This document shows, one piece after another, positions 4,492-58,697 of a stretch of 64,000 nucleotides of DNA (within the stretch, counting starts at the first letter, position 1; each line of letters starts with the position of its first letter). The DNA is taken from the NCBI GenBank assembly GCA_034231615.1, contig CM067322.1:50722456-50786455 (forward strand). The letters are read 5' to 3'. A program made the translations under genes and the position numbers. Origin of the DNA: Meghimatium bilineatum. Taxonomy: Eukaryota; Mollusca; Gastropoda; Stylommatophora; Philomycidae. The notes below the pieces were generated by a model, which searched no databases, was not told where the DNA came from, and was given only the letters and a program-made list of their open reading frames with translations.

Positions 4492-5704
4492 TTTGTTTGT
4501 TTGTTTTTCGTTCGCTCTATTGTAACCATCACGGATATCCGTGCGATTTCCGCCAGGAGCGTGATTACGTTGTGCCACCGTTATGCGCCTTGTAGGCCTA
4601 GCACATCCGATTTCGGCATGCCTTGACAATTCGGGTGGGCTACCGTTAGCCTGTGACAGCCTCTATATCTGTCTCCAGGCACGCGTAGTGGAGACTCTTC
4701 GCCCAGACGATTTTTTGCTCTCGTCTGACTCGAACAAGGTGTTCCACTGTCTATGAACTTGCCTCGTGTAATTGGACGTGCTGTGCCTGTGCCCATTGGG
4801 TACTGAACCGTTTCTCATCCGTGAGCCTTGTTCCTTAAGGGGAAGAACTCATCAGAGGAGTTGGACCCTGGCTCTTTCGTCCTCTTAGCCGAGGTGTCAT
4901 TCACCGACATCGTGTACCCCTTGTCCAAGTTCGAGTCTCACACCACGCGTTTGAGAGCAAGGCGTTCTCGAGCTGAGCGTCCTTGTCCCAATAGCGCCTG
5001 AGCCCATCAGGTACTGAACCCTTTCTCTCTTCAAGTGTATTTCCGGTGTAGGAAAACTTGGCAGTAGAGTTGGGCCAGGGCTAAATCGTTGTCCCTTTTG
5101 TGCCTGAGCGCATCGAGTACGGAACCCTTTCTCTTCGCGAGCATATTTCCGGTTTAGGAAGGCCCGACATTAGAGTTGGGTTAGGACTTCTTGCTTTACC
5201 AAACGCCAATGGATGGGTCTGGGTCTCTGCCTGTAAGGAACACAGGTAACTAGAAGCTCGTCTCGAGCTGACGGAGCTTGTAGTTCCCCTTTCCTAGGGA
5301 CTTTTCACTTTCTATTTGCAGTTCGCGCTGCCCTCTAGCGCTGTTCTGCCCTGTCATTGTTTCATTGTACTCGGTATGAAATCTATTTGTCTCTCGCCAT
5401 GGATCTATCTTTACGTACATTTTACATTGGCCGCCCCTCCAATGTTCGGACTGGACTGACCTGCTTCACTGTATGTCGACAGTGTCGCTATATGTGGTGA
5501 TGCTGGTGGTGTCGGAGATATTGTCTGTCTCTTGTGCAGTCAAATCTCTTTCCATCTGCTACCTCCACATTGTGATTTGGCCAGAATCAGCTCGAGCTGC
5601 TGTATTTCTGTTTCCAGGGTGCACCGCGTGGAGGTACATTTGGGATCTTGGTTATCTGCTAACCCTGGGTCCGCCTAGAGCAATGCGTTTCCTTTGCACC
5701 CCAC
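4492..5704 (-). mobile_element. Family C long retroposon, full-length copy 1 (1213 bp)
   Basis: The element lies inside a satellite unit with a perfect 11-bp TSD, CTCGTTCTGTA (4481-4491 and 5705-5715). In its own sense (minus strand) it begins TGGGGTGC and ends GAGCGAACG..(CAAA)n at 4492-4510. Near the 3' end is the perfect palindrome CACGGATATCCGTG (4531-4544). Its middle holds related repeats starting at 4791, 5002 and 5108 (GCSCATYGRGTACKGAACC). No reading frame over about 70 codons is conserved between copies, so it looks non-coding and non-autonomous. The shared 5' end with the copy at 37921-39334 argues that both are full length. Confidence 0.85.
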
Positions 5705-5750
5705 CTCGTTCTGTAACAATTCTATCATAATATTACTAATGATATAATAT
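5705..5750. repeat. Remainder of the interrupted 77-bp satellite unit
   Basis: It continues the eighth satellite unit directly after the family C element, including the second TSD copy. Confidence 0.9.
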
Positions 5751-6159
5751 GCAATAGCTACTTGTTATTGTGAGCACAATGTGCAATGTCATTTATACGT
5801 CAACTTTAAATAAAGACTAGTCGAAAAAGGTATTACTTGCAGCTGTCAACTTTCCCGTAACTACTGTCCTAGCAGCGTGTGGCAATACCCTCCACCAAGA
5901 GTAAACATGCGGCCGCCGGGACTATAATATTAAGCAATCAATATCATGTGTTGATTGTCAATAGGATTTTACAGTTCTATTGTCTTTATCAGATCTACGG
6001 GTGGGAGTGTATTCATACACGGCGTTATAGATATACACGGCTATGTTGCGGGATTTATCACGTCACGGAAACAGTTGGAAGTAAAGAAACATTGCCAAAA
6101 TGTATAGTACTATTCCTTTTCTATACATTTTTTTTGGTGTACCGCCACGGATATCTAGA
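5751..6159. other. Unassigned, no gene seen
   Basis: No repeat family recognised. A reading frame here runs into the LINE-c sequence downstream and is not a separate gene. Confidence 0.5.
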
Positions 6160-6609
6160 TATGAGATTTATAAAGGAGCATATCAAGAACATCCCGCGAA
6201 ACATATCAACAGGATTGGATGGCATAACAACTGAATCCATTAAGACGTGTTAAGAAATTGGAGTAAGCTGGCTGAAAACAATATTCACAGCCGTATGGTC
6301 AGATAAACAAGTACCACATGACTGGCAGAAAGCAATAATTGTACATATAAAAAAAAACATGGGCAGCAAAATGAAGTGTGAGACATACAGAGACATATAA
6401 CACTCAGACACATATGAAAGATTTATGCAAAAATCATAGAACAGAGAGTAAGACTGATAATAGAACTCCAGCGAAATAGACACAATTTGGTTTCAGGAAC
6501 GGTATGGGGTGCACAAATACAATTTGTGCGATACGCCAGCTGAGCGAAAAGACACCAGCTATATGGTCCCCAACTAAACATCGCCTTCATCGACCAAAAA
6601 AAGGCATTT

Positions 6610-6863
6610 TTCTTCTTCTTCTGCGTTCGTTCTCAAACTCCTGCAGATCAGCAGGGTGCAGTCCAGAGAATGGAATGCGCTGTGTCATGGTTTACAGCAC
6701 TGTTGCGATATCTGTACCTTTCGACCGGACACATCCGACTTCAGCATGGCTTTGGGTCACTGATCCTATATGTGATGGGACAGCCAACTCCATTTCATAA
6801 CCTCCTTAGTGGCCTTGTACGACATGCATGGAAGGTAAACAGTGTTGCTATTCTTTAGTGGCG
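6610..6863 (-). mobile_element. SINE-A, 5'-truncated, inserted in LINE-c
   Basis: The tail (TTC)n begins at 6610 and the copy ends within the AAAGAATAGCAACACTG region, so the 5' head is missing. Both sides carry AAAAGGCATTT (6599-6609 and 6864-6874), an 11-bp TSD made from the host LINE's own motif A codons. It is therefore younger than LINE-c. Confidence 0.85.
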
Positions 6864-7212
6864 AAAAGGCATTTGACAGAGCTGACAAGGAAAAATTGTA
6901 GCTAATATTTGAAGACTACGGAATACATTTACCTTTAATAGATAACATAAGAGCTTTGTACAAAAACTGCTAAGGCATACTCTGAACTACTGAGAGCACA
7001 ACCGATCCATTTGAAATAAAAACGTGCGTCAGACAAGGCTGCGTACTATCACCACTTTTGTTCGTAACATACATGGACATAATCATTAAAGAATCAAGCC
7101 CAAGAAATAAACCCACTCCTGCATGCACATTAAATAAAGAACACAGCTCACAAAACGAACGGCTATATGCAGACGATCGAAGTTTAATATTGAATCTGAA
7201 GATGAATTACTA

Positions 7213-7965
7213 CGGCATACACACGTGCTCCATACAACCTTCTAACAATACACACGTGCTCCATACAACCTTCTAACAATACACACGTGCTCCATACAAC
7301 CTTCTAACAATACACACGTGCTCCATACAACCTTCTAACAATACACACGTGCTCCATACAACCTTCTAACAATACACACGTGCTCCATACAACCTTCTAA
7401 CAATACACACGTGCTCCATACAACCTTCTAACAATACACACGTGCTCCATACAACCTTCTAACAATACACACGTGCTCCATACAACCTTCTAACAATACA
7501 CACGTGCTCCATACAACCTTCTAACAATACACACGTGCTCCATACAACCTTCTAACAATACACACGTGCTCCATACAACCTTCTAACAATACACATGTGC
7601 TCCATACAACCTTCTAACAATACACACGTGCTCCATACCACCTTCTAACAATACACACGTGCTCCATACAACCTTCTAACAATACACACGTGCTCCATAC
7701 AACCTTCTAACAATACACACGTGCTCCATACAACCTTCTAACAATACACACGTGCTCCATACAACCTTCTAACAATACACACGTGCTCCATACAACCTTC
7801 TAACAATACACATGTGCTCCATACAACCTTCTAACAATACACACGTGCTCCATACAACCTTCTAACAATACACACGTGCTCCATACAACCTTCTAACAAT
7901 ACACACGTGCTCCATACAACCTTCTAACAATACACACGTGCTCCATACAACCTTCTAACAATACA
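7213..7965. repeat. 31-bp minisatellite, about 24 units, inside LINE-c
   Basis: The unit is TACACACGTGCTCCATACAA followed by CCTTCTAACAA. Units are almost identical, with rare changes such as CATGTG. LINE-c coding sequence continues on both sides, so the array arose by expansion of a segment in or inserted into the LINE. Confidence 0.95.
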
Positions 7966-8231: not shown

Positions 8232-9064
8232 ACTCTATGTTACCTTCTTCTTCTGTGTTACCTTTCAGTGTGACATCCACTGTTCCCTTAGACTTTTCAG
8301 GCTAAAACTTGTCCCTGGCCAGTAGTTCCCGTGATGACGGCGGTCAATGATTTAGGCTTTGGTCGATACGTCAATCTCGCACGAGGTGTACCGCTGCCAA
8401 TGAACTTGTCTCGCGTAATTAGACGTATTATGAATGTACTGAACTTTTTCTGTCCGGGAGCATGATTCCAGTATAGGAAGCATCCACAGTAGAGTTGGGC
8501 CCAGGTTCGTTTACCTTCTTAGCAGAGGTGTCATTCACAGACATTGTGAATTCCTCGTCCAAGTCTTGAGTCTGTACACATATTTTAGGGACACTTGGGA
8601 ATAGAAGCTTGTCCTCGGACTGAACAAAAACCTTAGCTTCGATTTCCTTTTAACGTTTCCCCATTCCGTTTGCATGTTGTGCTGCCTCTAGCGCTGACTG
8701 CCCTCTCATTGTACTCAATATGCTGTCTTTTCGACTCTATTCGTCCTGACATATACACATTTCGTGACAATTGCATTGGCCGCCCCTCCAGTGCTCGAAC
8801 CGGACTGTCTTGCGTCAATATTTGTCTACAGTGATACTGTATGTTTTGGCACAAACGTGTCGGGAGATTTCCTGTCTTTTGCAGTCAATTCTGATTCTAT
8901 CTGCAATCTCCACATTAACAGACACAATCCCAAATGTGTTTGCCAGAAGAGGCACGAGTCACTGTACTTCTGTTTCCAGGGTGCACCACAAGGAGGTAAT
9001 TTTGAGATCTTGGTTATCTGCTAACCCTGGGTTCGTCCATAGCAACGCGGTACCCTTAGCACCC
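8232..9064 (-). mobile_element. Family C, diverged and internally deleted copy 3
   Basis: From about 8370 it tracks family C: CACGAGGTGT, TGAACTTGTCTCGCGTAATT, AGAGTTGGGCCCAGG, GTGTCATTCACAGACAT, then TGTTTCCAGGGTGCACC and a final TTAGCACCCA that matches the 5' terminus of full copies. A (TTC)n stretch at 8232 is the likely tail, but the 3' palindrome region is lost. No clean TSD was found. Reading frames here (for example 8764-9151) are incidental. Confidence 0.7.
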
Positions 9065-9069
9065 ATTTG

Positions 9070-9491: not shown

Positions 9492-9643
9492 GCCCGCCGA
9501 CGACGGATGTGTCGGGCCATTGGCCCAAATAAAACGGCGACATAACGCATTTCCATTCTCTTGACTACATCCTGCTGGAAATCTAGTAGGACAATGGTTC
9601 TGCTACAAGGGAGATCCAGCGGGAGTTTGAGAATTAACGAAAA
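9492..9643 (+). mobile_element. SINE-B, full-length, with 13-bp TSD
   Basis: It begins GCCCGCCGACGACGGATGTG, contains the near-palindrome TAGGACAATGGTTCTGCTA, and ends GAGAATTAACGAAAA. AGAATACACAATA flanks it on both sides (9479-9491 and 9644-9656), a perfect 13-bp TSD. Confidence 0.9.
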
Positions 9644-9656
9644 AGAATACACAATA

Positions 9657-15797: not shown

Positions 15798-15803
15798 TAA
15801 ATA

Positions 15804-17785: not shown

Positions 17786-18018
17786 CTCGGAGTTCAAGTT
17801 ATTAGTGGGCCCAGCTCATTAAAAAAAAACCACTCGCTCTAACTACCTAATGGTTGGAAAGTCGGTCGCTTACATAGCACTGCCAATGCTCCATTGCCAA
17901 CTCTCCGTCGTTTGATACAAACGAGGTTTGTTTCAATGCTGTCTCTTGCTTCGTTATCTAGAACTCCTTCATGTTCTAGACAGGAGAAATGTATGTTTGA
18001 ATAATATATCGGGGAATC
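17786..18018. other. Unassigned, no gene seen
   Basis: Short unique segment between LINE-a and SINE-A, with an A-run at about 17821. Confidence 0.5.
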
Positions 18019-18280
18019 TTCTTCTGCTGCGTTCGTTATCAAACTCCTGCAGATTAGCAAGATGTAGTCCGGAGAAGCTGAGCTGGTCATGGTTTACAGC
18101 TGAGCTATGATATCTACAACTTTCAGCCATCCGACTTCATCATGGCTTATGGGTCACTTTGACCCTATATGAGATAGGACAGCCAACTTCACCACATTAC
18201 CTCCTTAGTCGCCTATAACGATATGCATAAATAGTGTTGCTATTCCTTGCGTTCCTTTTGGAACCACGGCAACACGAGAG
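18019..18280 (-). mobile_element. SINE-A, degenerate copy
   Basis: It starts TTCTTCTGCTGCGTTCG and shows the CTCCTGCAGATTAGCAAGAT hairpin, the CATCCGACTTCA box and TTAGTCGCCTATAACGA, ending near CCACGGCAACACGAG, which corresponds to the head. There are several small deletions and no clear TSD. Confidence 0.8.
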
Positions 18281-26190: not shown

Positions 26191-26201
26191 ATATATTCAG
26201 T

Positions 26202-26476
26202 CGTCCGTGTGTTGCCGGAGCCCGAAAAGGGAGCAAAGAATATCAACACTGTTTACCTTCCACGCATGTCGTAAAAGGCGACTAAGAGGTTATGGGATGG
26301 AGTTGGCTGTCCCATCCCATACAGGGTAAGTGACCCAAAGCCATGCTGAAGTCGGATGTGTCAGGCCGAAAGGCACAGATATCGCAGCAATGCTGTAAAC
26401 CATGACACAACGCATTCCGTTCTCTGGACTACATCCTGTTAATCTGCAGGAGTTTGAGAACGAACGCAGAAGAAGA
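26202..26476 (+). mobile_element. SINE-A, near full-length, with TSD
   Basis: The head CGTCCGTGTGTTGCCGGAGC starts at 26202 and the tail GCAGAAGAA ends at 26476. ATATATTCAGT flanks it at 26191-26201 and 26477-26487, an exact 11-bp TSD. Core, GAAGTCGGATGTGTCAGGCC box and CTGTTAATCTGCAGG hairpin region are all well preserved. Confidence 0.9.
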
Positions 26477-26504
26477 ATATATTCAGTATTAGAAAAGTGT
26501 CTAG

Positions 26505-28538: not shown

Positions 28539-30408
28539 TCGATAAATCTGTCTGGAGCTAGTCGTATATCTTCTTCTTCTGCGTTCGTTCTCTTCTCAAA
28601 CTCCTGCAGATTAGCAGGATTTAGTCCGGAGAACTGAATGCGTTGTGTCATGGTTTACAGCATTGCTGCGATATCTGCGCCTTTCGGCCTGACACATCCG
28701 GCTTCAGCATGGCTTTGGGTCACTGACCCTATATGGGATTGGACAGCCAACTCCATCCCATAACCTCCTTAGTCGCCTTTTACGACATGCTTGGAAGGTA
28801 AACAGTGTTGCTATTCTTTGCTCCCCTTTCAGGCCCAGGCAACACACGGGCGGCTAGTCGTATATAAGAGGGCACGTTTACTTGTATCCCATGGTCTTTT
28901 GTTTTCGCATTGTTGCCAGGAAATACAATTTTACATTTCCATTGTATCATATTTAAACGACAATTATTTGAAGACCCATCTCTGTTGCTGTCTTTAAAAA
29001 GATTGTTTCTTTTGTTTCTATAACAGGCAGAGATCATGCAATGTCAGTTTTCGGTAAATCAGTGTTTCTGAAACTCATTCTTGTCACCGCCCATTTCGTA
29101 TATATTTTATAGTTCAACGCCGCCCGAACTAGCGCGTTAAATAAAAACAAACTTGGGCATTTCTTCGTTTGTGTGAAATTTTTTCACAAATTGTTACTTA
29201 ATAAATATGGCTTCATGGTTTCATTAAAATACAATTTTCAATGATGACAAGAGATACGTATTGCTCTCATGCAAATTCAGAGTTAGTAGGTAACCGAGAT
29301 CCCAAAAGCATCTCCTCGTTGTGCACACTGGATGTAGATTGTTTTGAAACGCGTACGCTACGGATCGTCTGAGAGTAGTGTAAACCGAGATGGAAAGTAA
29401 ATTGATTGCACAAGATAAACAATATATCCGGTACCTTTCGGTTGCTAAAACCAAAATATTGTGGCAGCACAGTGTAAGACAACTGATGGCCTGGTCTGGC
29501 AAGTTGTCATGTCCGTCAGCTCACAAAGATGTGAACAATGAGCGAGTCTGCGGGGAGGTAAAGCAAGTCTACTGAGTACATGATAAGTTGTAGCACTCGA
29601 AAGCAGTGCAAGAAAAGTGGGAAAATAGAAACAATAACAAAAGCAATAACGTGATCGAGAACAAGCTTTCATCTGTCATCTGGCAGCACTCTGTGTGGAA
29701 AGGTAGAGGCAGGTACCATACCGTTTGGGTACGAAGAAAATGCGGATAGCAGCTCATTCGGTGAAAAAAACTTCGACTAAGAGGGCAGACAACCCCAATC
29801 TAACGTTAATATTTCAGCAATGTCCTATATCTGAACCACCTCACAATCTAGAAAAGGGCCAATACCCGTAGACAACGGGGACAATGTTGTCTAATTACGC
29901 GAGACAAGTTCTCTGGCACCGGAATACCTCAGACTCGATAAACGTAGTTGATCCAAGTCTAAATCCCTATTAACCGTTTCCTCGGAAACTGTCACACAAG
30001 GACACGTTTTGGCCTGCAAATCCCAAGAGCACAGTGGGTTATAAATCGTCACGGTGTAAGGCTGATTCGAAATTGTTTTTTGCCTAAGAAGCATACTTGA
30101 AATGAAAGCATGCCAAAATATGATGTGCTTGGCCAGAAGGCGAAAAGAACGCAGATCCGTTGTGAAATCAGCAACACACAGTACTTCATGTTCTCCGTTG
30201 GAAATACACAAAATTTCGTGTTGGAATCAGACAGCTAACGCAGAAGAAGAAGGAACATTTCTCACATATCAAGCACAATGACAATCGTGTTTTCATGAGT
30301 CAAAGCAATGCATCCTTATTTAAAATATTTAACACTGTGTTGATGACACTTATTTTGTAAGGATTTTCGTTTGTAATAAATGAGATTTCTTCTTCTTCTT
30401 CTTCAGCG
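28539..30408. repeat. Tandem segmental duplication, unit X copy 1
   Basis: This 1870-bp block recurs at 31656-33525 with offset 3117 and only scattered differences that I could find (for example near 29107 and 30318). It contains SINE-A (28570-28852), about 1.5 kb of non-repetitive DNA without a recognisable gene, and the tail of SINE-B. A 106-codon minus frame (29891-30211) is preserved in both copies, but that is expected from recent copying. Confidence 0.9.
28570..28852 (-). mobile_element. SINE-A, full-length reference copy (283 bp), with 13-bp TSD
   Basis: GCTAGTCGTATAT flanks it at 28557-28569 and 28853-28865. In sense order it reads CGCCCGTGTGTTGCC, AGGGGAGCAAAGAATAGC, GTCGTAAAAGGCGACTAAGG, TGGGATGGAGTTGGCTGTCC, GAAGCCGGATGTGTCAGGCC, TGTAAACCATGACACAACGC, then the hairpin TCCTGCTAATCTGCAGGA and the (GAA)n tail. 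It is duplicated at 31687-31969 and 34206-34488 as part of the larger duplication. Confidence 0.95.
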
Positions 30409-30558
30409 TTCATTCCCAAACTCTCGCTGGATCTATCTTGTAGCAGGACCATGGTCCTATTAGATTGATTTCCAGCAGGATGTAATCCAGAGAATGGAAA
30501 TGCGCTGTGTCGCAGTTTTATTTACACCAATGACCCGACACATCCGTCTTCGGCGGTG
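30389..30558 (-). mobile_element. SINE-B with 10-bp TSD
   Basis: (TTC)nAGCGTTCATTC at the left and CACATCCGTCTTCGGCGGTG at the right, with the palindrome AGGACCATGGTCCT at about 30446. AATGAGATTT flanks it at 30379-30388 and 30559-30568. In the second duplication unit only its tail remains (33506-33525). Confidence 0.9.
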
Positions 30559-31655: not shown

Positions 31656-33525
31656 TCGATAAATCTGTCTGGAGCTAGTCGTATATCTTCTTCTTCTGCG
31701 TTCGTTCTCTTCTCAAACTCCTGCAGATTAGCAGGATTTAGTCCGGAGAACTGAATGCGTTGTGTCATGGTTTACAGCATTGCTGCGATATCTGCGCCTT
31801 TCGGCCTGACACATCCGGCTTCAGCATGGCTTTGGGTCACTGACCCTATATGGGATTGGACAGCCAACTCCATCCCATAACCTCCTTAGTCGCCTTTTAC
31901 GACATGCTTGGAAGGTAAACAGTGTTGCTATTCTTTGCTCCCCTTTCAGGCCCAGGCAACACACGGGCGGCTAGTCGTATATAAGAGGGCACGTTTACTT
32001 GTATCCCATGGTCTTTTGTTTTCGCATTGTTGCCAGGAAATACAATTTTACATTTCCATTGTATCATATTTAAACGACAATTATTTGAAGACCCATCTCT
32101 GTTGCTGTCTTTAAAAAGATTGTTTCTTTTGTTTCTATAACAGGCAGAGATCATGCAATGTCAGTTTTCGGTAAATCAGTGTTTCTGAAACTCATTCTTG
32201 TCACCGCCCATTTCGTATATGTTTTATAGTTCAACGCCGCCCGAACTAGCGCGTTAAATAAAAACAAACTTGGGCATTTCTTCGTTTGTGTGAAATTTTT
32301 TCACAAATTGTTACTTAATAAATATGGCTTCATGGTTTCATTAAAATACAATTTTCAATGATGACAAGAGATACGTATTGCTCTCATGCAAATTCAGAGT
32401 TAGTAGGTAACCGAGATCCCAAAAGCATCTCCTCGTTGTGCACACTGGATGTAGATTGTTTTGAAACGCGTACGCTACGGATCGTCTGAGAGTAGTGTAA
32501 ACCGAGATGGAAAGTAAATTGATTGCACAAGATAAACAATATATCCGGTACCTTTCGGTTGCTAAAACCAAAATATTGTGGCAGCACAGTGTAAGACAAC
32601 TGATGGCCTGGTCTGGCAAGTTGTCATGTCCGTCAGCTCACAAAGATGTGAACAATGAGCGAGTCTGCGGGGAGGTAAAGCAAGTCTACTGAGTACATGA
32701 TAAGTTGTAGCACTCGAAAGCAGTGCAAGAAAAGTGGGAAAATAGAAACAATAACAAAAGCAATAACGTGATCGAGAACAAGCTTTCATCTGTCATCTGG
32801 CAGCACTCTGTGTGGAAAGGTAGAGGCAGGTACCATACCGTTTGGGTACGAAGAAAATGCGGATAGCAGCTCATTCGGTGAAAAAAACTTCGACTAAGAG
32901 GGCAGACAACCCCAATCTAACGTTAATATTTCAGCAATGTCCTATATCTGAACCACCTCACAATCTAGAAAAGGGCCAATACCCGTAGACAACGGGGACA
33001 ATGTTGTCTAATTACGCGAGACAAGTTCTCTGGCACCGGAATACCTCAGACTCGATAAACGTAGTTGATCCAAGTCTAAATCCCTATTAACCGTTTCCTC
33101 GGAAACTGTCACACAAGGACACGTTTTGGCCTGCAAATCCCAAGAGCACAGTGGGTTATAAATCGTCACGGTGTAAGGCTGATTCGAAATTGTTTTTTGC
33201 CTAAGAAGCATACTTGAAATGAAAGCATGCCAAAATATGATGTGCTTGGCCAGAAGGCGAAAAGAACGCAGATCCGTTGTGAAATCAGCAACACACAGTA
33301 CTTCATGTTCTCCGTTGGAAATACACAAAATTTCGTGTTGGAATCAGACAGCTAACGCAGAAGAAGAAGGAACATTTCTCACATATCAAGCACAATGACA
33401 ATCGTGTTTTCATGAGTCAAAGCAATGCATCCGTATTTAAAATATTTAACACTGTGTTGATGACACTTATTTTGTAAGGATTTTCGTTTGTAATAAATGA
33501 GATTTCTTCTTCTTCTTCTTCAGCG
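31656..33525. repeat. Tandem segmental duplication, unit X copy 2
   Basis: Near-identical to 28539-30408, including SINE-A with the same TSD (31687-31969). It stops inside SINE-B directly after CAGCG and passes straight into the 14-bp satellite. Most of SINE-B, its spacer and part of the satellite have therefore been deleted in this unit. Confidence 0.9.
31687..31969 (-). mobile_element. SINE-A, duplicate of 28570-28852
   Basis: Same insertion, same 13-bp TSD, carried along by the segmental duplication rather than independently inserted. Confidence 0.9.
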
Positions 33526-34009: not shown

Positions 34010-34626
34010 TTAGTAATTATGTTCGTATGATTCTCTATGCATGTGATATTTGTAATTAATTGTCAATAAAGAGAGAATATATTCTGACATGACATCCAGT
34101 CACTGAGCAACATCTCCACTACGACAGACCTGGTAAGTCGGTAAATGTGTTTCTCTTCACCTGATAAAAAATGTTCGATAAATCTGTCTGGAGCTAGTCG
34201 TATATCTTCTTCTTCTGCGTTCGTTCTCTTCTCAAACTCCTGCAGATTAGCAGGATTTAGTCCGGAGAACTGAATGCGTTGTGTCATGGTTTACAGCATT
34301 GCTGCGATATCTGCGCCTTTCGGCCTGACACATCCGGCTTCAGCATGGCTTTGGGTCACTGACCCTATATGGGATTGGACAGCCAACTCCATCCCATAAC
34401 CTCCTTAGTCGCCTTTTACGACATGCTTGGAAGGTAAACAGTGTTGCTATTCTTTGCTCCCCTTTCAGGCCCAGGCAACACACGGGCGGCTAGTCGTATA
34501 TAAGAGGGCACGTTTACTTGTATCCCAGAGAATATATTCTGACATGACATCCAGTCACTGAGCAACATCTCCACTACGACAGACCTGGTAAGTCGGTAAA
34601 TGTGTTTCTCTTCACCTGATAAAAAT
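34010..34626. repeat. Flank F copy 2, partial unit X copy 3 and partial F copy 3
   Basis: F copy 2 runs to about 34174. X resumes at 34175 and breaks off at 34527 after GTATCCCA. A second half-copy of F (34528-34626) follows, then unique DNA. This marks the right edge of the tandem array. SINE-A inside lies at 34206-34488. Confidence 0.85.
34206..34488 (-). mobile_element. SINE-A, second duplicate
   Basis: The same insertion event as the two copies to the left, in the truncated third unit. Confidence 0.9.
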
Positions 34627-34985
34627 GTTGCAGATCCTTCACATGACGATTAGTTGGACGTGTCAAGATTCTATAGCTTATATAAAATCCAGACATTTAC
34701 TCTCGTCCATGAATTAAAAAAGACGGGAGGGGTGCTCTACCAAGAAATACGAACGAGATAGATAGTAAATCTCCTCTAGATTTCAGTATATTTGTATAGT
34801 GTACTTAGTGTGATTACATCTACGTGCTATTTTAGTTTCTCCAGATGATGATGACCAAATAATCCTTTTTGCTATGATCAGGTAGCCCTTGACAACCCAT
34901 AGCCTTACTGATTAAAAAAACCCCCCCAAAAAAACAGATTCCTCGTAGTTATCACACTGAGAGAACACTGGGACTCATACACATT
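34627..34985. other. Unassigned, no gene seen
   Basis: Contains A/C homopolymers at about 34914-34935. Nothing else recognised. Confidence 0.5.
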
Positions 34986-34986
34986 A

Positions 34987-35141
34987 TCTTCTTCTTCTGC
35001 GTTCATTCTCAAACTCCCACTGGATATCTCTTGTATCAGGACAATGGTCCTAAAAGATTTCCAGAAGGCTGTAGTCCAGAGAATGGAAATGCGTTGTGTC
35101 GCCGTTTTATTTGCGCCAATGGCCCGACACATCCGTCTTCG
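34987..35141 (-). mobile_element. SINE-B copy
   Basis: CTTCTTCTTCTGCGTTCATT at the left, AATGGAAATGCGTTGTGTCG in the middle and ACACATCCGTCTTCGGTGG at the right. The palindrome is decayed (AGGACAATGGTCCT). No clear TSD. Confidence 0.85.
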
Positions 35142-35239
35142 GTGGGTTACAATGTATCAAAGATATGCATATGTAAAGGTTGTTTATGGATGCATGTTTA
35201 GTCTTCTAAGGAAGGGATTCTAATGCACCAGCATCCCTG

Positions 35240-37860: not shown

Positions 37861-37920
37861 ATATAAAACACTGTATAAGACATTGATATATATAACACTG
37901 CATAAGACATTGATTTCCAA

Positions 37921-39334
37921 TTTCTTCTTCTTCTTCTTCTTCTTCTTCTTCTGCGTTCGCTCTCAAATAACCACAACAAATATTTCGTGTGATTTCCGCC
38001 AGGGAACGTGAAGTACGTTGTGCTGCAAGTTCCACAGTAAAACTGTGATTATTTGCACCCAGGTTGGCCACTTGTGGTCAGGACGTCCGACCTCTAGCAC
38101 ATCCGTTTTCGTCATTCCTTTATTTCGGGTTGTGGTCCCTAGTCCGTCACAGCCTTTCTATATGCCGCCGGGCACGCTGGTGTGTAGTGCCTCTTCGCAA
38201 AGACGCTTGTCGAGCGCGTCTATCTGGTACGAGGTGTTCCGCCATCTATGAACTCATCTCGTGCATTTGGACAAACTGTGCCTGTGCCCATCGGGTACTG
38301 AACCGTTTCTCATCTGCGAGCCTGGTTTCGTATGAGGAAGAACTCGCCAGTAGAGTTGGACCCTAGCTTGTTCGCCCTCCTACCCAAGGCGTCGTTCACC
38401 GACATCGTGAACCCCTCGTCCAAGTTCGAGTCTCACACCACGCGTTTGAGAGCAAGGCGTTCTCGAGCTGAGCGACCTTGTCTCAATAGCGCCCGAGCCC
38501 ATCAGGTACTGAACCCTTTCTCTCTGCAAGTGTGTTTCCGGTATAGGAAGCTTGACAGTAGAGTTAGGCCAGGGCTAAAATCGTTATCCCTTTTGTGCCT
38601 GAGCCCATCAGGTACTAAACCCTTTCTCTCTGCAAGTGTATTTCTGGTAAAGGAAATCTTGACAGTAGAGTTGGGCCAGGACTGCCATCGTTGTCCTTTT
38701 TTTGCCTAAGCCCATCGGGTACGGCACCCTATCTCTTCGCGAGCATTATTTCCAGTTTAGGAAGGCTCGACATTAGAGTTGGGTTAGGTCTTCTTGCTTT
38801 TCCGAACGCCTGTGATTGGGTCTGGGTCTCTGCATATGAGGAGTACAGGTAACTAGAAGCTCGTCTCGAGCTAACAGAGCTTGTAGTTCCCCCTTCCTAT
38901 GAACCTTTCACTTTCTATGTGCAGTTCGCGCTGCCCTCTGTTTCATTGTGTCATTGTACTCATTATGACATATATTTGTTTCTCGCCATGCATTAACCTT
39001 TACGTATCTTTTACATTGGCCGCCCCTCCAATGTTCTGACTGGACTATCTGGCGTCACTGTATGTCGACAGTGTCGCTGTATGTGGTGATGCTAATGGCG
39101 TAGGAGATATTGTCTGTTTCAATGCAGTCAAATCTCTTTCCAACTGCTTCTTCCACATTCTCGGACACGATCCCCAAATGATTTGGCCAGAATCAACTCG
39201 AGCTGCTGTATTTCTGTTACCAGGGTGCACCGCGAGGAGGTACATTTGGGATCATGGTTATCTGCTAACCCTCGATAATCTGCTGCTAACCCTCTGCTAT
39301 CCGCCTAGAGCAATGCGTTCCCATTGCACCCCAA
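37921..39334 (-). mobile_element. Family C long retroposon, full-length copy 2 (1414 bp)
   Basis: GATTTCCAA flanks it at 37912-37920 and 39335-39343 (9-bp TSD). In sense orientation it starts TTGGGGTGC, like copy 1, and ends GAGCGAACGCAG(AAG)n. Its tail is therefore (GAA)n rather than (CAAA)n. Internal repeats start at 38286, 38497, 38603 and 38710, spaced 106-107 bp, one more than in copy 1. The 3' palindrome is replaced by CACAACAAATATTTCGTGTG, which still pairs at 8 of 10 positions. Frames of 77-125 codons on the plus strand are antisense to the element and not conserved as proteins. Confidence 0.85.
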
Positions 39335-39343
39335 GATTTCCAA

Positions 39344-41682: not shown

Positions 41683-41800
41683 GCATTAGTTTGAATATTA
41701 TATTACATTAGTATGAATATTATATTACATTAGTATGAATATTATATTACATTAGTATGAATATTATATTACATTAGTATGAATATTATATTACATTATT
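41683..41800. repeat. 22-bp minisatellite, about 5 units
   Basis: Unit TTAGTATGAATATTATATTA plus CA. Confidence 0.95.
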
Positions 41801-41814
41801 TTAATATTAGATAC

Positions 41815-41976
41815 TTCTTCTTCTTCAGCGTTCATTCTCAAACTCCCGCTGGATTTCTCTTGTAATAGGACAATAGTCCTACAAGATTTCCAGTTGAATG
41901 TAGTCCATAGAATGGAAATGCGTTGTGTTGCTGTTTTATTTGCGCCAATGGCCCAACACATCCGTCTTCGGTGGAT
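41815..41976 (-). mobile_element. SINE-B, full-length, with TSD, at satellite edge
   Basis: ATATTAGATAC flanks it (41804-41814 and 41977-41987). The tail (TTC)n joins AGCGTTCATTC. The palindrome region reads AGGACAATAGTCCTA. It sits directly beside the 22-bp array. Confidence 0.9.
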
Positions 41977-47772: not shown

Positions 47773-48200
47773 CCTCACTGTGCCACACAACGTAGATAAT
47801 ACCTCACTGTGCCACACAACGTAGATAATACCTCACTGTGCCACACAACGTAGATAATACCTCACTGTGCCACACAACGTAGATAATACCTCACTGTGCC
47901 ACACAACTTAGATAATATCTCATTGTGCCACACAACGTAGATAATATCTCACTATGCCACACAACGTAGATAATATCTCATTGTGCCACACAACGTAGAT
48001 AATATCTCATTGTGCCACACAACGTAGATAATATCTCATTGTGCCACACAACGTAGATAATATCTCATTGTGCCACACAACGTAGATAATATCTCATTGT
48101 GCCACACAACGTAGATAATATCTCACTGTGCCACACAACGTAGATACTATCTCACTGTGCCACACAACGTAGATACTATCTCACTGTGCCACACAACGTT
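47773..48200. repeat. 29-bp satellite, about 15 units
   Basis: Unit CCTCACTGTGCCACACAACG plus TAGATAATA. Grades into the 19-bp array that follows, which lacks the ACGTAGATAAT part. Confidence 0.95.
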
Positions 48201-48279
48201 AGTCATATCTTATTGTGCCACACATATCTCACTGTCACACATATCTCACTGTGCCACACAACGTTAGTCATATCTTATT
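48201..48279. repeat. Left part of the 19-bp CACATATCTCACTGTGC satellite
   Basis: Mixed long and short units up to the LINE-g insertion point. Confidence 0.85.
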
Positions 48280-48837
48280 CTCCAGTCTGGAAAACTAACA
48301 GACTTGAAATAACTACTTAGCGAATTGTCTTACCAGTATAGGGTAACCATGCAGTGGATACCCTCTCACTGTGGAATACCAGGAAATAAAAAAGCAGACC
48401 AACTGGCTAAGGAAGGTGCTGCCGAAGACCAACCAGATATACCAATCACCTACCATCAGAAAAAACAGATGATCAAGTCAATAAGAAAGCCACAAACACC
48501 AACACAAGATGACTATCATATTATGAACAGACCAGAACAAGTTATAATTCTACGTCTCAGAACAGGACACAACCGACTCCGCAGTCACATGTATACAAAG
48601 TTCAAGATTGGCAACACGGCCACGTGTACATGTCGACAGGCAGCACAGAGTGCCAAACATATACTTCAAGAGTGTTCTGAGCATGAAACGGTGAGGCAGA
48701 CATATTGGCCAGAGGAAACAACACTGGAATCAAAACTCTATGGGACACTGTATGAACTACAGAAGACCGTGAGTTTTATTAAGGAGACAGAATTACAGAT
48801 ATAGACATGTTTCAAGTGAACGAAAGAAGAAGAAGAA
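48280..48837 (+). mobile_element. LINE-g, 5'-truncated, inserted in satellite
   Basis: ATATCTTATT flanks it (48270-48279 and 48837-48846). Its 3' end is TTTCAAGTGAACG followed by a (GAA)n tail. Only the RNase H to C-terminal part remains. Confidence 0.9.
48325..48804 (+). pseudogene. LINE-g RNase H C-terminal region and zinc-knuckle-like tail (159 aa)
   Basis: Residues about 9-30 (TMQWIPSHCGIPGNKKADQL, then AKEGA) are the terminal RNase H motif with its conserved His and Asp, typical of I- and Jockey-group LINEs that carry RNase H. Residues about 70-115 (RLRTGHNRLRSHMYTKFKIG, then CTCRQAAQSAKHILQEC) form the Cys/His-rich segment after RNase H. The frame is open to the natural stop, but the first RNase H catalytic residues, RT and endonuclease are lost by 5' truncation. 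RNase H removes template RNA during retrotransposition. Its tail resembles those of SINE-A and SINE-B. Confidence 0.9.
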
Positions 48838-49465
48838 TATCTTATTGTGCCACACATATCTCACTGTGCCACACATATCTCACTGTCACACATATCTCAC
48901 TGTGCCACACATATCTCACTGTGCCACACAACGTTAGTCATATCTCACTGTGCCACACATATCTCACTGTCACACATATCTCACTGTGCCACACATATCT
49001 CACTGTGCCACACATATCTCACTGTGTCACACATATCTCACTAGGTCACACATATCTCACTGTGTCACACATATCTCACTAGGTCACACATATCTCACTG
49101 TGTCACACATAGCTCACCGTGTCACACATAGCTCACCGTGTCACACATATCTCCTGTGTCACACATATCTCCTGTGTCACACATATCTCCTGTGTCACAC
49201 ATATCTCCTGTGTCACACATATCTCCTGTGTCACACATATCTCACTGTGTTACACATATCTCACTGTGCCACACATATCTCACTGTGCCACACATATCTC
49301 ACTGTGCCACACATATCTCACTGTGCCACACATATCTCACTGTGCCACACATATCTCACTATGTCACACATATCTCACTAGGTCACACATATCTCACTAG
49401 GTCACACATATCTCACTGTGTCACACATATCTCACTGTGTCACACATATCTCACTGTGTCACACA
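48838..49465. repeat. 19-bp satellite, about 32 units
   Basis: Unit CACATATCTCACTGTGCCA with variants TGTGTCA, AGGTCA and CTCCTGTG arranged in runs. Frames across it are artefacts. Confidence 0.95.
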
Positions 49466-50776: not shown

Positions 50777-51059
50777 TCTTCTTCTTCTTCTGCGTTCGTT
50801 CTCAAACTCCTGCAGATTAGCAGGATGTAGTCCAGAGAACGGAATGCGTTGTGTCATGGTTTACAGCATTGCTGCGGTATCTGCGCCTTTCGGCATGACA
50901 CATCCGACTTCAGCATGTCTTTGTGTCACTGGCCCTATATGGGATAGGACAGCCAACTCCATCCTATAACCTCTTTAGTCGTTTTTTACGACTTGCGTGG
51001 AAGGTAAATAGTTGTGCTATTCTTTGCTCCCCTTTCGGGCCCCGGCAACACACGGGCGC
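50777..51059 (-). mobile_element. SINE-A, full-length, with TSD
   Basis: TATGTTAT flanks it at 50769-50776 and 51060-51067. It ends at the full head (sense AGCGCCCGTGTGTTGCCGGG) and has the complete core. Confidence 0.9.
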
Positions 51060-51270
51060 TATGTTATAATATTGTATAGTATGTTATGCTATGGTATATG
51101 GTGTGGTATTGTATATGTTATGCTATGGTATGGTGTGGTATTGTATATGTTATGCTATGGTATGGTGTGATATTGTATATGTTATGCTATGGTATGGTGT
51201 GATATTGTATATGTTATGCTATGGTATGGTGTGATATTATTGTATTGTCTGGTATGGTATAATATAGTAC
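51060..51270. repeat. About 32-bp TATGG-rich minisatellite, 5 units
   Basis: ATGTTATGCTATGGTATGGT then GTGATATTGTAT is repeated. Confidence 0.85.
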
Positions 51271-53724: not shown

Positions 53725-54513
53725 AAAAGTTAATTCAAATTCAAGAATATTATTTTCTAGGCCTAGCCGATACGGTCAAATGTTGATATTAAGTGTTAAA
53801 CTATGGGACTAAAAGAACACATTATACGAAACTAACGATTTTAATACAGTGCAAATTTAATTTAATTATGAATAATAACAACTAAAATAAAAAGTCGAAC
53901 GTCAGTAGAAAATGAGCAAGTGGTCATCGGATTTAGAGTCCTATTCTCTACCGCTTCTCATACCTAACTGCATACATCACAGACTTCTCATATCTAACTG
54001 ATGTAAAATTGCATACATATATTATTGTATGAATCTCTACACAAGAGATTCTTTGAATAAAATTTTCTTGTGTCACTTTGAAACAGATGCGAAATGTTCT
54101 CTTTTATGAAATCAATTACCAAACGAAATAAAAGAAACGATAGTAGACATCATATTTCACATATAGTCAACGTTAATTGAACGTTAATTGCTGTCAACGT
54201 TGGCAGTAAAACCCGCAATTTATTAAATAATCGGCTAGCCGTTATGGACAAATGTTGACTTTATGCGAAATGTGTATCTCGGTCAGAGGGTCAAAGATCA
54301 ACCAATCATATAATTGGTCACCTTTTGCCGGACACAAGGACATTAATTCTAAATTCTCCTAGCGCCAGCACCTCCTCCGTAGAATTTTCTATACGTTTAG
54401 CAATTTTCATTCGTCTGCGTTACGAAATGGAGGAATGTATAGAATATGACAACAGAAACAGCTACTGAGCTTATATATATCCCTGATAATAACTATATCG
54501 CATATTAAAAAGG
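53725..54513. other. Unassigned, no gene seen
   Basis: AT-rich, no coding frame above the listing threshold. Confidence 0.5.
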
Positions 54514-54614
54514 TCTTGTTTTTCTGCATTCGTTCTCAAACTCCTGCAGATTAGCAAGATGCAGTCCGGAGAATTGAATGCGATGTGTTATGGTTTACAA
54601 CTTAGCTGCGATAA
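54514..54614 (-). mobile_element. SINE-A, 5'-truncated fragment
   Basis: TTCTGCATTCGTTCTCAAAC, CTCCTGCAGATTAGCAAGAT and ATGGTTTACAACTTAGCTGC, then it stops. About 100 bp of the 3' end. Confidence 0.8.
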
Positions 54615-54639: not shown

Positions 54640-57055
54640 TTATAATACTAACTATGAAAATAAATAAAACAATGTAAAAACTAAATAGTAATAAACACAA
54701 TAAAAAGGCGTCAGGTGTTGAAGGGTTGTTTGAAGGCAGCCTTTTTGTGTGCTTCATATATGTTTGTTTTCGTAGACTCTTATTTCTGTAATCCATCTTT
54801 TGCATAGTCTGGCACTGGGTTAGTATTCATTGTATCTGTATAGTAATGCTTGTTTTGAGGGACACTATCTGATGGTAGTCTGGAAGCATTTGAAAATGAC
54901 TTAATCTATTGTCATCTGATGTTATCCGGGATTGACATCGTGTTTGTTAGTCTTCTGATGTTTTCGTTTCTGATTCTATCTTTTATTGTCACTCCGATAA
55001 TTCTACGTAGACAAATAATTTATGTTTTGACTAGTTTTCTTTAGGCCTGGTTGTTGGTGTCCATGTTTGACATTGGTAGCATTGTGATGGCATGATGATC
55101 GTTTTATATAATGCAGTTTTGGTGTTCACGTTTCAATGTTTGTTTTTGAAAATAGGAGACATCTGCCCTAAGTTATGACGTGATATGTTATATATATGTT
55201 GGTTTTCTTTGATATTTTCCCCATTTGATGATATGATGCTTCCAAGATGAATGAATTCTTTAGTCAGTTTGTTTGTTTGTTTTGCGTTCGCTCCATTGTA
55301 ACCAGCACGGATATCCGTGCGATTTCCGCCGGGAGCGTGATTACGTTGTGCCACCGTTATGCGCCTTGTAGGCCTAGCACATCCGATTTCGGCATGCCTT
55401 GACAATTCGGGTGGGCTACCCTAGCCTGTGACAGCCTCAATATCTGTCTCCAGGCATGCGTGTATGTGGTGACTCTTCGCCCAGACGATTTTTGCTCTCG
55501 TCTGTCTTGCACGAGGTGTTCCACTGTCTATGAACTTGCCTCGTGTAATTGGACATACTGAGCCTGTGCCCATCGGGTACTGAACCGTTTCTCATCCGTG
55601 AGCCTGGTTCCTTAAGGGGAAGAACTCATCTGAAGAGTTGAACCCTGGCTCTTTCGCTCTCTTAGCCGAGGTGTCATTCACCGACATCATTTTAGTCAGT
55701 TTAAGTTGTTGGTCATCGATGAAAAAAGTAGTGTCTCTTTCCGTTTTTTACGATTGACATTACCTTTTTTTTTATGTGTTTATCTTCATGTTAAAATTCA
55801 TACAGTTTGTGTGAACTCTATTTATATGTTGTTGTAGTTGTTCTTCTTATGTTGATATTATTGTTTGTCGTCTAAAAAAGAAGTTTGTTCAGGAAGTTGT
55901 TTTGGTTGTCTTCTTCATTGGTGGTGGCAATTGTGCGTATACAATCGATATATAATGAGTAGCAAGGAAGATAGAATATTTCCTTGTCGTACGCCAGAGT
56001 GTATGTGGAATTTGTCTGAAAGCCCGTCGCCCGTTCTGACTGCACATTGCCTACACGTGTAAACTGCACTCGTTGATTATGTGTTGTGGAACCCCATATT
56101 TTGATATTATTTTCCAAGGTTGTTGAAGGTTGTCTCTGTATAATGTTTTTTCTTCGAGAAACGCGATATACAATTCCTGGTTGATTTAAGTTGCTTTTTT
56201 TTTCCCTGCCAGTTGTCTCAGTGTAAAAGCAACATCTGTACTGCTCTTATTCTTGCGGAATCACATTTGAGTGTTGTTAAGTTGTGGTTCGATGAATGAT
56301 TGTAATATACTTTCTAGAAGTTTGCTGAAAATACGTCTGTATTTTGTACAATCTCTTTTGCTGCCTTTTTCTTCCAAATAGGTATTACTCCAGCATGTTT
56401 CCAGTCTTCTGCTATTTCTTGTGCATTCCATGATATATTAAACAGTACCATTTTATCCCTATATCTGCTGCTGCCTTGACTAATTTGACTTGTATGTTAT
56501 CGTGTCCTGGGATGATGGAGCTGTTTCTATTGTATTTTCTATTTCTGCTAGCAATTTGTTTGTTTATATTTTTTCCGTTATATTATTTACTATGTTGTCG
56601 CCTCTCCCCATCTTTTAGATTTAGAAATTCTTTCAAATAGTGTTACTACCATTCCATGATTATTTTCGTATCATTGATTGTCTTTCCATTTTCATCATTT
56701 ATTATTTCGGTTGCCTCATTTATCTTCCCTATTTCTCATATTCTTAATTTTCTTGTAGAATTTCGTTAGTACTTGTTTGTACTCTGTATTTAATGATTCC
56801 CCACACTCTTGCCAATCTGTTATTTTGGCATCTTTAACGATTTTCTGTTTATTGATTTAGCTGACCTGTACTCAATATAATCTTCTTGTGATTTTCTTTC
56901 AGCCCATTTCTTGAATTTGTGTTTATCTTTTATGGCATCGCTGACTTCCTCGTTTCTTAATGGTGTTACTTTGGGTTTTCTACCTTTATGTTTCATGTAT
57001 CCACGTGTTTCTCCCGCTATTTGCATTATGGTTTTCTTTAATATTTCCCTGACAG
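54640..57055 (-). pseudogene. LINE-d, antisense, degenerate, split by family C
   Basis: From 57055 downward the minus strand encodes a GRKPKVTPLRNEEVSDAIKD segment (frame 56820-57026), which is the linker before RT, then decayed RT with PGHDNIQVKLV near 56500 and a motif-A-like FLEEKTLYR near 56150. After the inserted family C copy at 55271-55690 comes LTKEFIHLGSIISSNGENIK (about 55190-55270), the YLGS.IS.DG motif after RT. The end is near 54740. Stops and indels are everywhere, so it is the oldest large LINE here. A small related fragment is at 40800-41040. Confidence 0.8.
55271..55690 (-). mobile_element. Family C, 5'-truncated copy 4 (420 bp), inside LINE-d
   Basis: TTTAGTCAGTTT flanks it at 55259-55270 and 55691-55702 (12-bp TSD). 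The tail is (CAAA)n, followed inward by GAGCGAACGCAAAA-type sequence and the perfect palindrome CACGGATATCCGTG (55306-55319). Compared with 4492-5704 it stops after the first third, the 5' truncation expected of LINE-style reverse transcription. Confidence 0.9.
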
Positions 57056-57770
57056 AAAGGATACGTGTCAGAAAAATTGAAGCTTATGATCCCTAACTCT
57101 GCATGATGCGGAAAGGTAGTAAAGCTACAAAAATCATTAAAATGTACTGCCTTCTAAGTATGAAGATTCTTCTCAAAGCATTACACATCGCTAAGAGTTA
57201 AGTCTTTTTGGTATGAAATAAAATTGTGCAGAAACCTCATCATTGTTAAAAGGATACACGAGCTCTATTGCTCGTAATTTCTGGAGATCGAAATAAACAG
57301 CAATAACAATGATGAATGACTAGATTTTAATCATTTTAAATATGCCAACAATATTTTCTCTTTATCCAACAACGTGCCCGAGAGGAAGACAGCTCGTTCT
57401 GATGTTGTGAGATCATGTTCTGATACGAGATTCATAAACAGCTGCTTCCAGTTGGACAGATGACAGATTGTTCAGAGAACAATTGGAAAACCAACTGAAT
57501 GTGGAAATATTATATAAAATCACTACAGATTTTATTCTGGGGTTTTCTCTACAGTTTTAATAGTATAGAAATATACATTTTTTTTACTTTGGTCATAATA
57601 CACAAATGAGGATTTTAAAAAAAGTACTCTTTTAAAAAAAAAAGACAAAGCGTGAGGGGAACAAGATATATGTATTTATGAGGGTCAATAAAAAAATAAA
57701 TGTCTGTACTTTATTACTATGTCAAGGAATAATACTATTTTATGTGTGTGTCGTTAGTGTGTTTTTTCTT
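57056..57770. other. Unassigned, no gene seen
   Basis: AT-rich, with A-runs at about 57617-57650. Confidence 0.5.
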
Positions 57771-57771
57771 T

Positions 57772-57824
57772 GTCATCGTTCATTCTTAAACTTCCGTTGG
57801 ATCTCTCTTCTAGTACGACAATGG
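57772..57824 (-). mobile_element. SINE-B fragment (older, host of the next insertion)
   Basis: TCGTTCATTCTTAAACTTCC, then GTTGGATCTCTCTTCTAGTA and ACGACAATGG. It breaks at the palindrome, where a second SINE-B inserted. Confidence 0.8.
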
Positions 57825-57982
57825 TCTTCTTCTTCTGCGATCATTCTCAAACTCCCGCTGAATCTCCCTTGTAGCAGGACCGTTGTCCTACTAGATTTTC
57901 AGCAGGATGTAGTCCAGAGAATGAAAATGCGTTGTGTCGCCGTTTTATTTGCGCCAATGGCCCGACACATCCGTCTTCGGCA
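57825..57982 (-). mobile_element. SINE-B, inserted into an older SINE-B
   Basis: GACAATGG flanks it (57817-57824 and 57983-57990), the left copy being the older SINE-B's palindrome half. The element itself is complete, (TTC)nTGCGATCATTC to CATCCGTCTTCGGCA. Confidence 0.85.
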
Positions 57983-57990
57983 GACAATGG

Positions 57991-58552
57991 AATTACTTTT
58001 CAACATTGTATCTAAAGCAGGCCTACTAAGAATGTGTTTCTATTTTGCATGATTTTGTTAAGATTTTGGAGGGATTTATTTTCAATAAATTACACAACTC
58101 ACATATTTCACCTCTATTTATTGCTGATAGCTTCGTAGCTAAGGAAATATGTCAGTAACTCGCATAATAATCTTATAATGTGACTGACCACAACCTTGGG
58201 TTCACAACAACAAAATATAATTAATCACAAAGGAAGAAGAACAGAATGAATCGATGATTCAGAGACACTTAAGTTGACCAAAAAGGCATGCCCCAGTCAG
58301 ATGCTGAAAATGAAAACAATGAACTTTGTTTCGTTGCAGTCGAGGGCACAAACAGTTCGTGAAAAATGGTAGCATTCTGAACTAAATATCTAACATCCGG
58401 TGTGAAGAGCTAGCCATTGTTTCCTGGCAAATGTGTTGTTAGCATATAATAATATGCATAATCATAGGCTTATACATGTTCACGGCGTGTGTCTGTTTTT
58501 ATGTATAATTTTAAAGAAAATATAATTGCACCCGAATGTTATATTTATCATT
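57991..58552. other. Unassigned, no gene seen
   Basis: No recognised repeat or coding region. Confidence 0.5.
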
Positions 58553-58697
58553 CGTCGAAGAAAGATCGGCACAAATAAAGCGGCGACACAAAGCATTTCC
58601 ATTCTCTGGACTACATCCTGCTGAAAATCTTGTGGGACCATGGTCCTGCTGCAAGGGAGATCCAGCGGGAGTTTGAGAATGAACGCTGAAGAAGATA
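58553..58697 (+). mobile_element. SINE-B with small internal deletion
   Basis: CGTCGAAGAAAGATCGGCAC joins AAATAAAGCGGCGACACAAA, lacking about 17 bp of the 5' box. The palindrome GGGACCATGGTCCTGCT and tail GAATGAACGCTGAAGAAG are intact. Confidence 0.85.

Follow-up and report, generated by a model that had tools for sequence, protein, structure and literature searches.

How the enzyme of a long interspersed nuclear element (LINE) selects its own RNA, and how short interspersed nuclear elements (SINEs) exploit that selection, is a long-standing question. It is raised by a stretch of 64,000 nucleotides (nt) from the gastropod Meghimatium bilineatum (GenBank assembly GCA_034231615.1, contig CM067322.1, positions 50,722,456 to 50,786,455 of the forward strand), hereafter the window, which holds copies of three non-autonomous retroposon families, A, B and C, ending in a common 3' module. 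With several non-autonomous families and three LINE families (LINE1, LINE2 and LINE3) in one genome, covarying arms are open to testing. We consider it probable that A, B, C and a fourth family, D, are LINE derivatives, similar to short internally deleted elements (SIDEs), that have lost autonomy and keep a composite 5'-3' RNA structure. A bolder proposal, which we put forward tentatively and at somewhat less than even odds, is that an animal LINE group marks its own RNA by a 5'-3' panhandle and copies only RNAs with both ends, and that A to D collapse this panhandle into one local hairpin.

Families A, B and C are retroposons with target-site duplications

The three families differ in length, with 267 nt plus the tail for A, 146 nt for B and 1,212 nt for C. 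A blastn search of the window revealed 11 A-type matches at 72-100% identity, six B matches and four C-type copies (two full-length, one 5'-truncated and one old), in addition to two further short matches to the C head. The copies are as follows, with the method in brackets.

50780..51060, minus strand, family A, near full length with head, box, outer stem and (GAA)n tail, ends approximate (motif, blastn, genome search)
26200..26480, plus strand, family A, ends approximate (motif, blastn)
28570..28855, minus strand, family A, one of three in a local duplication (motif, blastn)
31687..31972, minus strand, family A, in the local duplication (motif, blastn)
34206..34491, minus strand, family A, in the local duplication (motif, blastn)
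2597..2880, plus strand, family A, ends approximate (blastn)
6612..6858, minus strand, family A, 5' truncated (motif, blastn)
189..475, plus strand, family A, older, ends approximate (blastn)
18015..18258, minus strand, family A, older, ends approximate (blastn)
54513..54613, minus strand, family A, 3' fragment (blastn)
58945..59210, plus strand, family A, most diverged at 72% identity (blastn)
57825..57981, minus strand, family B, ends approximate (blastn)
58557..58697, plus strand, family B, ends approximate (blastn)
9495..9650, plus strand, family B, ends approximate (blastn)
30350..30555, minus strand, family B, ends approximate (blastn)
34985..35145, minus strand, family B, ends approximate (blastn, genome search)
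41800..41972, minus strand, family B, ends approximate (blastn)
4490..5703, minus strand, family C, full length, (CAAA)n tail, target-site duplication ACAGAACGAGG (blastn; duplication by eye)
37920..39335, minus strand, family C, full length, (GAA)n tail, target-site duplication TTGGAAATC (blastn; duplication by eye)
55278..55688, minus strand, family C, 5' truncated, target-site duplication AACTGACTAAA (blastn; duplication by eye)
8369..9064, minus strand, family C, old and degenerate (blastn)

Three near-identical A copies (98%), spaced by 3,117 and 2,519 bases, lie in an apparent local duplication (28523-34500) that also holds 14-nt minisatellites (30725-31481 and 33528-34000). Family C shows two tail types behind the same GAGCGAACG, (CAAA)n at 4490-4520 and (GAA)n at 37920-37960, which may reflect a change of tail or of partner. 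It also contains tandem units of ~106 nt with GGTTCAGTACC-like stretches (e.g. 4980-5190 and 38491-38780), of which the copy at 38 kb apparently has more.

The window's own genome (1.61 Gb, 32 contigs) was searched for further copies, and loci fetched from it carry L-numbers. The best 40 matches were scored of 4,959 (A), 1,597 (B) and 4,985 (C) first-look candidates, and the genome copies used below are best-scoring matches, not a random sample. All 40 scored C matches, including the window's self-match, cover ~1,200 nt at an identity of at least 94%, which indicates a uniform, full-length C at no fewer than 40 places. Target-site duplications (TSDs) of at least 7 nt flank 21 of 30 A copies (two heads unmatched), those of at least 9 nt flank 16 of 30 B copies by reading (L055 and L056 look like duplicates), and those of at least 10 nt flank 10 of 12 C copies (nine by script and L071 by eye). 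The families lack a long open reading frame (ORF): the longest sense stretch between stops in the C consensus is 90 amino acids (aa), and A and B are below 300 nt. ARAGORN detected no tRNA within the window, and no Rfam match to the window reached its gathering score. A search for a tRNA, 5S or 7SL head gave none, with weak sub-threshold matches only in C copies and one A copy; for A, it took most of one copy, with the head ~20 nt short.

An outer stem covaries within one homologous 3' module

Pairwise alignment of the family consensuses extended over 105 columns with gaps for A and B (score 58) and 41 columns for A and C (score 45), with 0/500 shuffles as good in both cases, and was weaker for B and C (score 28, 2/500 shuffles). 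By these alignments the boxes common to A, B and C belong to one homologous 3' module, which runs in identical order through a GAAGNCGGATGTG-type box, GGCGCA, CACAACG, a stem, AACG and the tail. The window contains 10 sites of the motif GARCGAACG, where shuffled sequence would give 0.29; nine of these sites are the 3' ends of A (six) and C (three) copies, and the remaining one (52817) stands without such a module. A previous reading of the window from its letters alone (the sequence-only reading) had proposed three retroposon families of different size with one 3' module, which the A-B and A-C alignments together with the TSDs bear out. The GARCGAACG-type end that it assigned to all of them is present in A and C, but B ends in GAGAATGAACGC rather than GAACGAACGC.

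The same reading described a hairpin near the tail, fixed in place and changed in sequence, as a structural recognition element. The near-tail hairpins are indeed kept among genome copies. In A, 6/6 pairs are formed in 26 of 30 copies and 5/6 in the other four; in B, 8/8 pairs in 16 of 30, 7/8 in 13 and 5/8 in one; and in C, 7/7 pairs in 11 of 12. The alignment columns of these inner hairpins in A/B are not those in C, so that the constancy of place does not apply to them. It applies instead to an outer stem of the CGTTCTC/GAGAACG type, unnamed in that reading, which forms a helix at the same place in all three families. All seven pairs of the A stem (CGTTCTC/GAGAACG) are present in 28 of 35 parsed copies, all seven of the B stem (CATTCTC/GAGAATG) in 29 of 35, and all six of the C stem (CGCTCC/GGAGCG) in 11 of 15. 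Five of 90 sequences were left out of the parsing (B locus L053 and the window A copies at 28806, 237, 18211 and 58993), and one copy was counted twice in A and one in B, since L003 and L033 are also window entries. An (A)CACAAC box precedes the 5' arm in the three families and in LINE1.

Twenty-five of the 90 sequences (23 distinct) were chosen for an alignment, in which 94.4% of the outer-stem cells are paired, compared to 27-44% when the arms are slid by 1-3 columns. The covariation score of 0.338 exceeds the shuffled value of 0.195, and none of 500 shuffles is as high. Three of the seven pairs show two-sided changes, in 18 cells that count sequences rather than events and amount to about three replacements between families; the number of such pairs is matched by 254 of 500 shuffles. 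Such an outer stem, altered in sequence but constant in place and pairing, is consistent with a structural recognition element, more narrowly defined than at first.

Family D joins a LINE leader to a LINE terminus, and the A box resembles LINE leaders

Among 150 scored genome matches to LINE1, open frames reach 1,310 aa. Its full copy L075 is ~4.06 kb long, has a 3' untranslated region (UTR) of <40 nt and encodes a single 1,305-aa frame with apurinic/apyrimidinic endonuclease, reverse transcriptase (RT) and RNase H domains (Pfam; domains tested for LINE1 alone), as in Ingi/I-type elements with one long ORF. We take this domain order to be ingi-like. Ingi-type LINEs are abundant in some gastropods, according to the available part of PMC11203168. 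LINE2 copies are older, with a longest listed open frame of 452 aa and a protein ~46% alike to that of LINE1 in alignment, whereas LINE3 has open frames of up to 1,337 aa. The LINE1 3' end is GTGAACGAAAGAAG in 11/11 fetched copies, that of LINE2 CCGAACGAGAAG in 9/11 (L104-L114), and that of LINE3 GATCGCAGAAGAAG in 4/4. Followed by (GAA)n, these termini resemble the ends of A, B and C as judged by eye; in local alignment against the last 400 nt of LINE1, neither A nor B rose above shuffles. The 5' leader of LINE3 (L117, L119 and L121) is longer and includes a hairpin of GGGATATCAG and CTGATATCCC.

The window itself contains one piece of LINE1, the candidate partner LINE family:

48282..48838, plus strand, LINE1 fragment, 5' truncated, from the RNase H domain to the 3' end TGAACGAAAGAAGAAGAAGAA, TSD TATCTTATT (domain search; TSD by eye)

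The A box matches the leader around the LINE start codon, with 0/1,000 shuffles as good for LINE1, 0/1,000 for LINE2 and 4/1,000 for LINE3; the LINE1 leader reads GCTGAAGACGGAGGC...AAAAGGCGCACAGATAATCAGGATGCCACGCACACAAC where A reads GCTGAAGTCGGATGTG...GAAAGGCGCAGATATC...ATGACACAACGC. An origin of the box in a LINE 3' UTR was rejected, as the 3' UTR of LINE1 is so short and the box was found in the leader. Family D displays the same plan directly: in L061 the LINE1 leader is joined to the last LINE1 nucleotides, and this join is spanned by 22 of 40 scored genome matches (L061 included). The other 18 end before the join; of these, three were fetched, and L100 and L101 continue into LINE coding sequence by eye. 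The junctions of L086, L089, L093 and L098 are not of the main type, and L041 appears by eye to be a D-like derivative of LINE2. Because the junctions differ and LINE2 has its own apparent derivative, the LINE group seems to have given rise to such short elements on more than one occasion.

D matches the definition of a SIDE, a LINE 5' part joined to the 3' end of the same LINE. In A the plan is seen as the box plus a similar terminus, while B and C appear linked to LINE leaders only through A. Since the A box resembles LINE leaders and the termini are LINE-like, A, B and C look like internally deleted LINE derivatives. This description suits them better than the SINE superfamily of the sequence-only reading, and the module does not look like an independent SINE core.

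The two ends are complementary in the three LINE families examined

Downstream of the LINE1 ATG, GAAACATGTCTTTATCTATAA is complementary to the terminal sequence TTACAGATATAGACATGTTTC; the corresponding LINE2 pair is TTGACATGTCTGCACGACAA and TTGCTGTGTAGACATGTCAA. In both families one arm lies ~20 nt downstream of the ATG and the other spans the stop codon. The pairing rule and a guess at a 25-nt LINE3 arm were written down before the LINE3 5' end was fetched; within zones of 75 and 45 nt, LINE3 gave a score of 31.5 (5/3,000 shuffles). The own-end duplexes have energies of -27.1 and -26.7 kcal/mol for LINE1, -28.9 for LINE2 and -41.2 for LINE3, values that are reached by 2 and 5, 1 and 0 of 2,000 shuffles, respectively. 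Cross-family duplexes range from -13 to -24 kcal/mol, and each family pairs best with its own end.

With wider zones, 0/400 dinucleotide shuffles were as good for each of seven copies, four of which are near-identical LINE3 copies. In LINE3 (L117/L118) the wider zone forms 59 pairs at -76.3 kcal/mol, a value attained by none of 1,500 random genomic 79-mers (best -70.4). No internal window pairs as well with the 3' zones of LINE1 and LINE2 (0/398-399; wider zones 0/172-173). Of 19 D-type loci, 11 keep the 5' arm and four have no parsed 3' end.

A composite structure as the proposed RT signal

We propose that the common module is made of two LINE parts, a segment of the 5' leader from around the start codon and the 3' terminus with its simple-repeat tail. 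Complementarity between the post-ATG stretch of the LINE RNA and its stop-codon and 3'-terminal stretch could bring the two ends together as a panhandle. The two equivalent arms of the short elements, separated by a few dozen nt, would fold back locally into a stem. The LINE RT most likely recognises the composite structure beside the tail and starts target-primed reverse transcription there, and the short elements would survive by retaining it. On this proposal the pairing would form in cells and be read by the RT, and A, B and C would have come from relatives of these LINEs.

If the RT does read both ends, this would explain why a leader piece is kept in the short elements, and would provide a check that the template is full length. 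Moreover, pairing between the post-ATG and stop-codon regions would serve as a rule linking orphan SINEs to their LINEs. In the literature searched, no paper dealt with a panhandle or end pairing in non-LTR (long terminal repeat) retrotransposons, as judged by title or the start of the abstract, and a stem with leader-side and 3'-terminal arms common to LINEs and short derivatives was not found in the portions available.

Alternative explanations

Several results weigh against the composite structure as an RT signal, and they are given here with the alternatives, which are not mutually exclusive. The outer stem of A taken alone is not significant (p 0.14), and the best stem in the B and C zones is the inner one (0.15 and 0.013).

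The alternative that survives best, though we regard it as unlikely, is that the LINE end complementarity is a by-product, arising for instance from biased composition at the coding ends or left over from an inverted duplication, with no role in retrotransposition. For the LINE1 5' zone, equally good partners were 9 and 8 of 405 internal 45-mers (LINE2, 3/404) and as many as 32 and 43 of 174 internal 79-mers (LINE2, 1/174), and among 3,000 random genomic 45-mers the observed value is matched by 45 for the second LINE1 copy (LINE1b), 15 for LINE2 and one for LINE3. Four of the 19 D-type loci carry a LINE 3' end without the 5' arm. Only three LINE families are available, and the zone sizes of 75 and 45 nt were fixed when the LINE3 sequences were already in view, with the LINE3 start codon chosen by the analyst; of the 25-nt arm guessed for LINE3, just a core around TATGCTC is present and pairing. 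A by-product would not lead one to expect that each family pairs best with its own end, that the LINE1 and LINE2 arms both sit ~20 nt past the ATG and across the stop codon, or that the outer stem covaries among the three short families.

Slightly less likely is an ordinary SINE group, whose shared core or 3' tail is read only via the terminal hairpin and the repeat, as in stringent LINE/SINE pairs, the likeness of A to LINE leaders being an old shared fragment devoid of function. Recognition of a 3' stem-loop is reported for stringent LINEs (available part of PMC5135761), and the terminal hairpins are retained here. The boxes of B and C also lack a significant match to LINE leaders: shuffles were as good in 54/1000 (LINE3) and 682/1000 (LINE2) cases for B, and in 815/1000 (LINE1), 584/1000 (LINE2) and 696/1000 (LINE3) for C. 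The better value of B against LINE1 (4/1000) is due solely to a 15-nt hairpin, AGGACCATGGTCCTG in the inner part of B and AGGACCATAGTCCTG in the LINE1 leader. None of the LINEs found bears an A, B or C form of the leader. What argues for LINE derivatives instead is that no shuffle in 1000 equals the match of A to either of two LINE leaders, that D displays the leader-plus-terminus plan directly, and that the position of the 5' arm behind the (A)CACAAC box is common to LINE1 and A, B and C.

It is improbable that the box was kept as a LINE promoter or translation-start element serving the transcription of the short elements instead of as an RT signal. Its position just upstream of the LINE ATG, and the start of B almost at the box, agree with such a role; in A and C other heads precede it and place it ~145 and ~1,100 nt into the element, where a 5' promoter is unlikely. 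Unrelated repeats that share a GAA tail by chance can be dismissed, for although (GAA)n is nothing more than a simple repeat, the shuffle tests of motif counts (10 vs 0.29) and alignments (0/500), in addition to the TSDs, refute chance sharing.

Comparison with known retroposons

The R2 and R2/R1 SIDEs of Drosophila are likewise non-autonomous and combine a LINE 5' part with the LINE 3' end, and R2 SIDEs have a 5' ribozyme, which is suspected only in C here (PMC3414825, available text). R2 itself is site specific in ribosomal DNA and relies on a 3' UTR structure, and 5'-3' pairing is not mentioned in the available text of PMC3414825. Compared to R2 SIDEs, the present insertions are dispersed, have a simple-repeat tail and, in A and C, bear extra heads. 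NARTc and RIME are the short partners of the L1Tc and ingi elements of trypanosomatids. As described in the accessible part of PMC4035085, this clade resembles the present elements in that LINEs and shorter partners have in common a 5' segment, which there carries the Pr77 ribozyme of the hepatitis delta virus (HDV) type. The present families differ in belonging to an animal genome, in having the leader piece toward the 3' side in A and C and a terminal stem arm on the leader side, and in that the ribozyme is a candidate.

The CORE-, V-, Deu-, Ceph- and Meta-SINE superfamilies combine different heads with one conserved central domain and tails from different LINEs, whereas the domain common to A, B and C includes the terminus itself. 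Genome cyclisation by end pairing is familiar from flaviviruses and, alongside them, Ty1. The flavivirus case is alike in the complementary stretches near both RNA ends, and is an analogy of mechanism only, between unrelated elements.

Persaeus, a SIDE of the CR1 element Zenon in Lepidoptera, is also dispersed and amplified with its LINE partner; it is said to have arisen at least four times, and LINE-derived SIDEs are described as rare (PMC6740152, available text). It differs in belonging to the CR1 clade, and complementarity, hairpin, secondary structure, stem and ribozyme go unmentioned in the available text of PMC6740152. Stringent LINE/SINE pairs have a conserved terminal stem-loop by the tail that is common to LINE and SINE, as the present LINEs and short elements may, but theirs lies in the 3' UTR, in the portion of PMC5135761 available, while one arm here is the region after the start codon. 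No link was found to the German cockroach SINEs in the accessible text of PMC9191728.

A literature search for sequence strings of the families gave no relevant paper, the two papers that contain one 13-letter family string being unrelated by title. CATGTCGTAAAAGGCGACTAA matches two viral contigs that have one stretch in common and no blastn match to the window. GAAGNCGGATGTGTCRGGCC was absent from viral contigs, a longer sequence pattern was absent from the genome contig collection, and a distant search of phages for relatives gave none.

Ribozyme-like 5' ends and other features of the window

The 5' ends of C and of LINE1, LINE2 and D are candidates only for HDV-like ribozymes. The Rfam model drz-agam-1 matches C at ~nt 47-137 with 24.2 bits (E 0.11) in L064 and L066 and 19.8 bits in L063, below its gathering score of 37. 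By eye, the C consensus has a 7-bp P1, GGGGTGC/GCACCCT, starting from the first base with a G1.U wobble, and a short P3, P1.1, P4 and J4/2 with a C can be drawn. A similar fold, whose P1 begins with C, can be drawn for the 5' ends of LINE1, LINE2 and D. In this fold 93.6% of cells pair, compared to 20-49% when slid, and the two two-sided changes both come from LINE2, with 81 of 500 shuffles as high. Rfam gave no such match in LINE1 or in the 5' pieces of LINE3.

The LINE1 fragment at 48282..48838 lies inside minisatellites of 29 and 19 nt (47774-49465), whose CACAACGTA-like units are close to the box described in the sequence-only reading, a likeness that may be chance. Further LINE fragments with an RVT_1 domain are located at 14484-15833 (minus strand), 16636-17577 (plus strand) and 59349-60515 (plus strand); they are 25-28% alike to LINE1 and presumably RTE-like. 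Between the first two, 15890-16552 (plus strand) holds an open frame of 220 aa that has no Pfam match at E 0.001 and reads, in our estimation, like a mariner/SETMAR-type protein.

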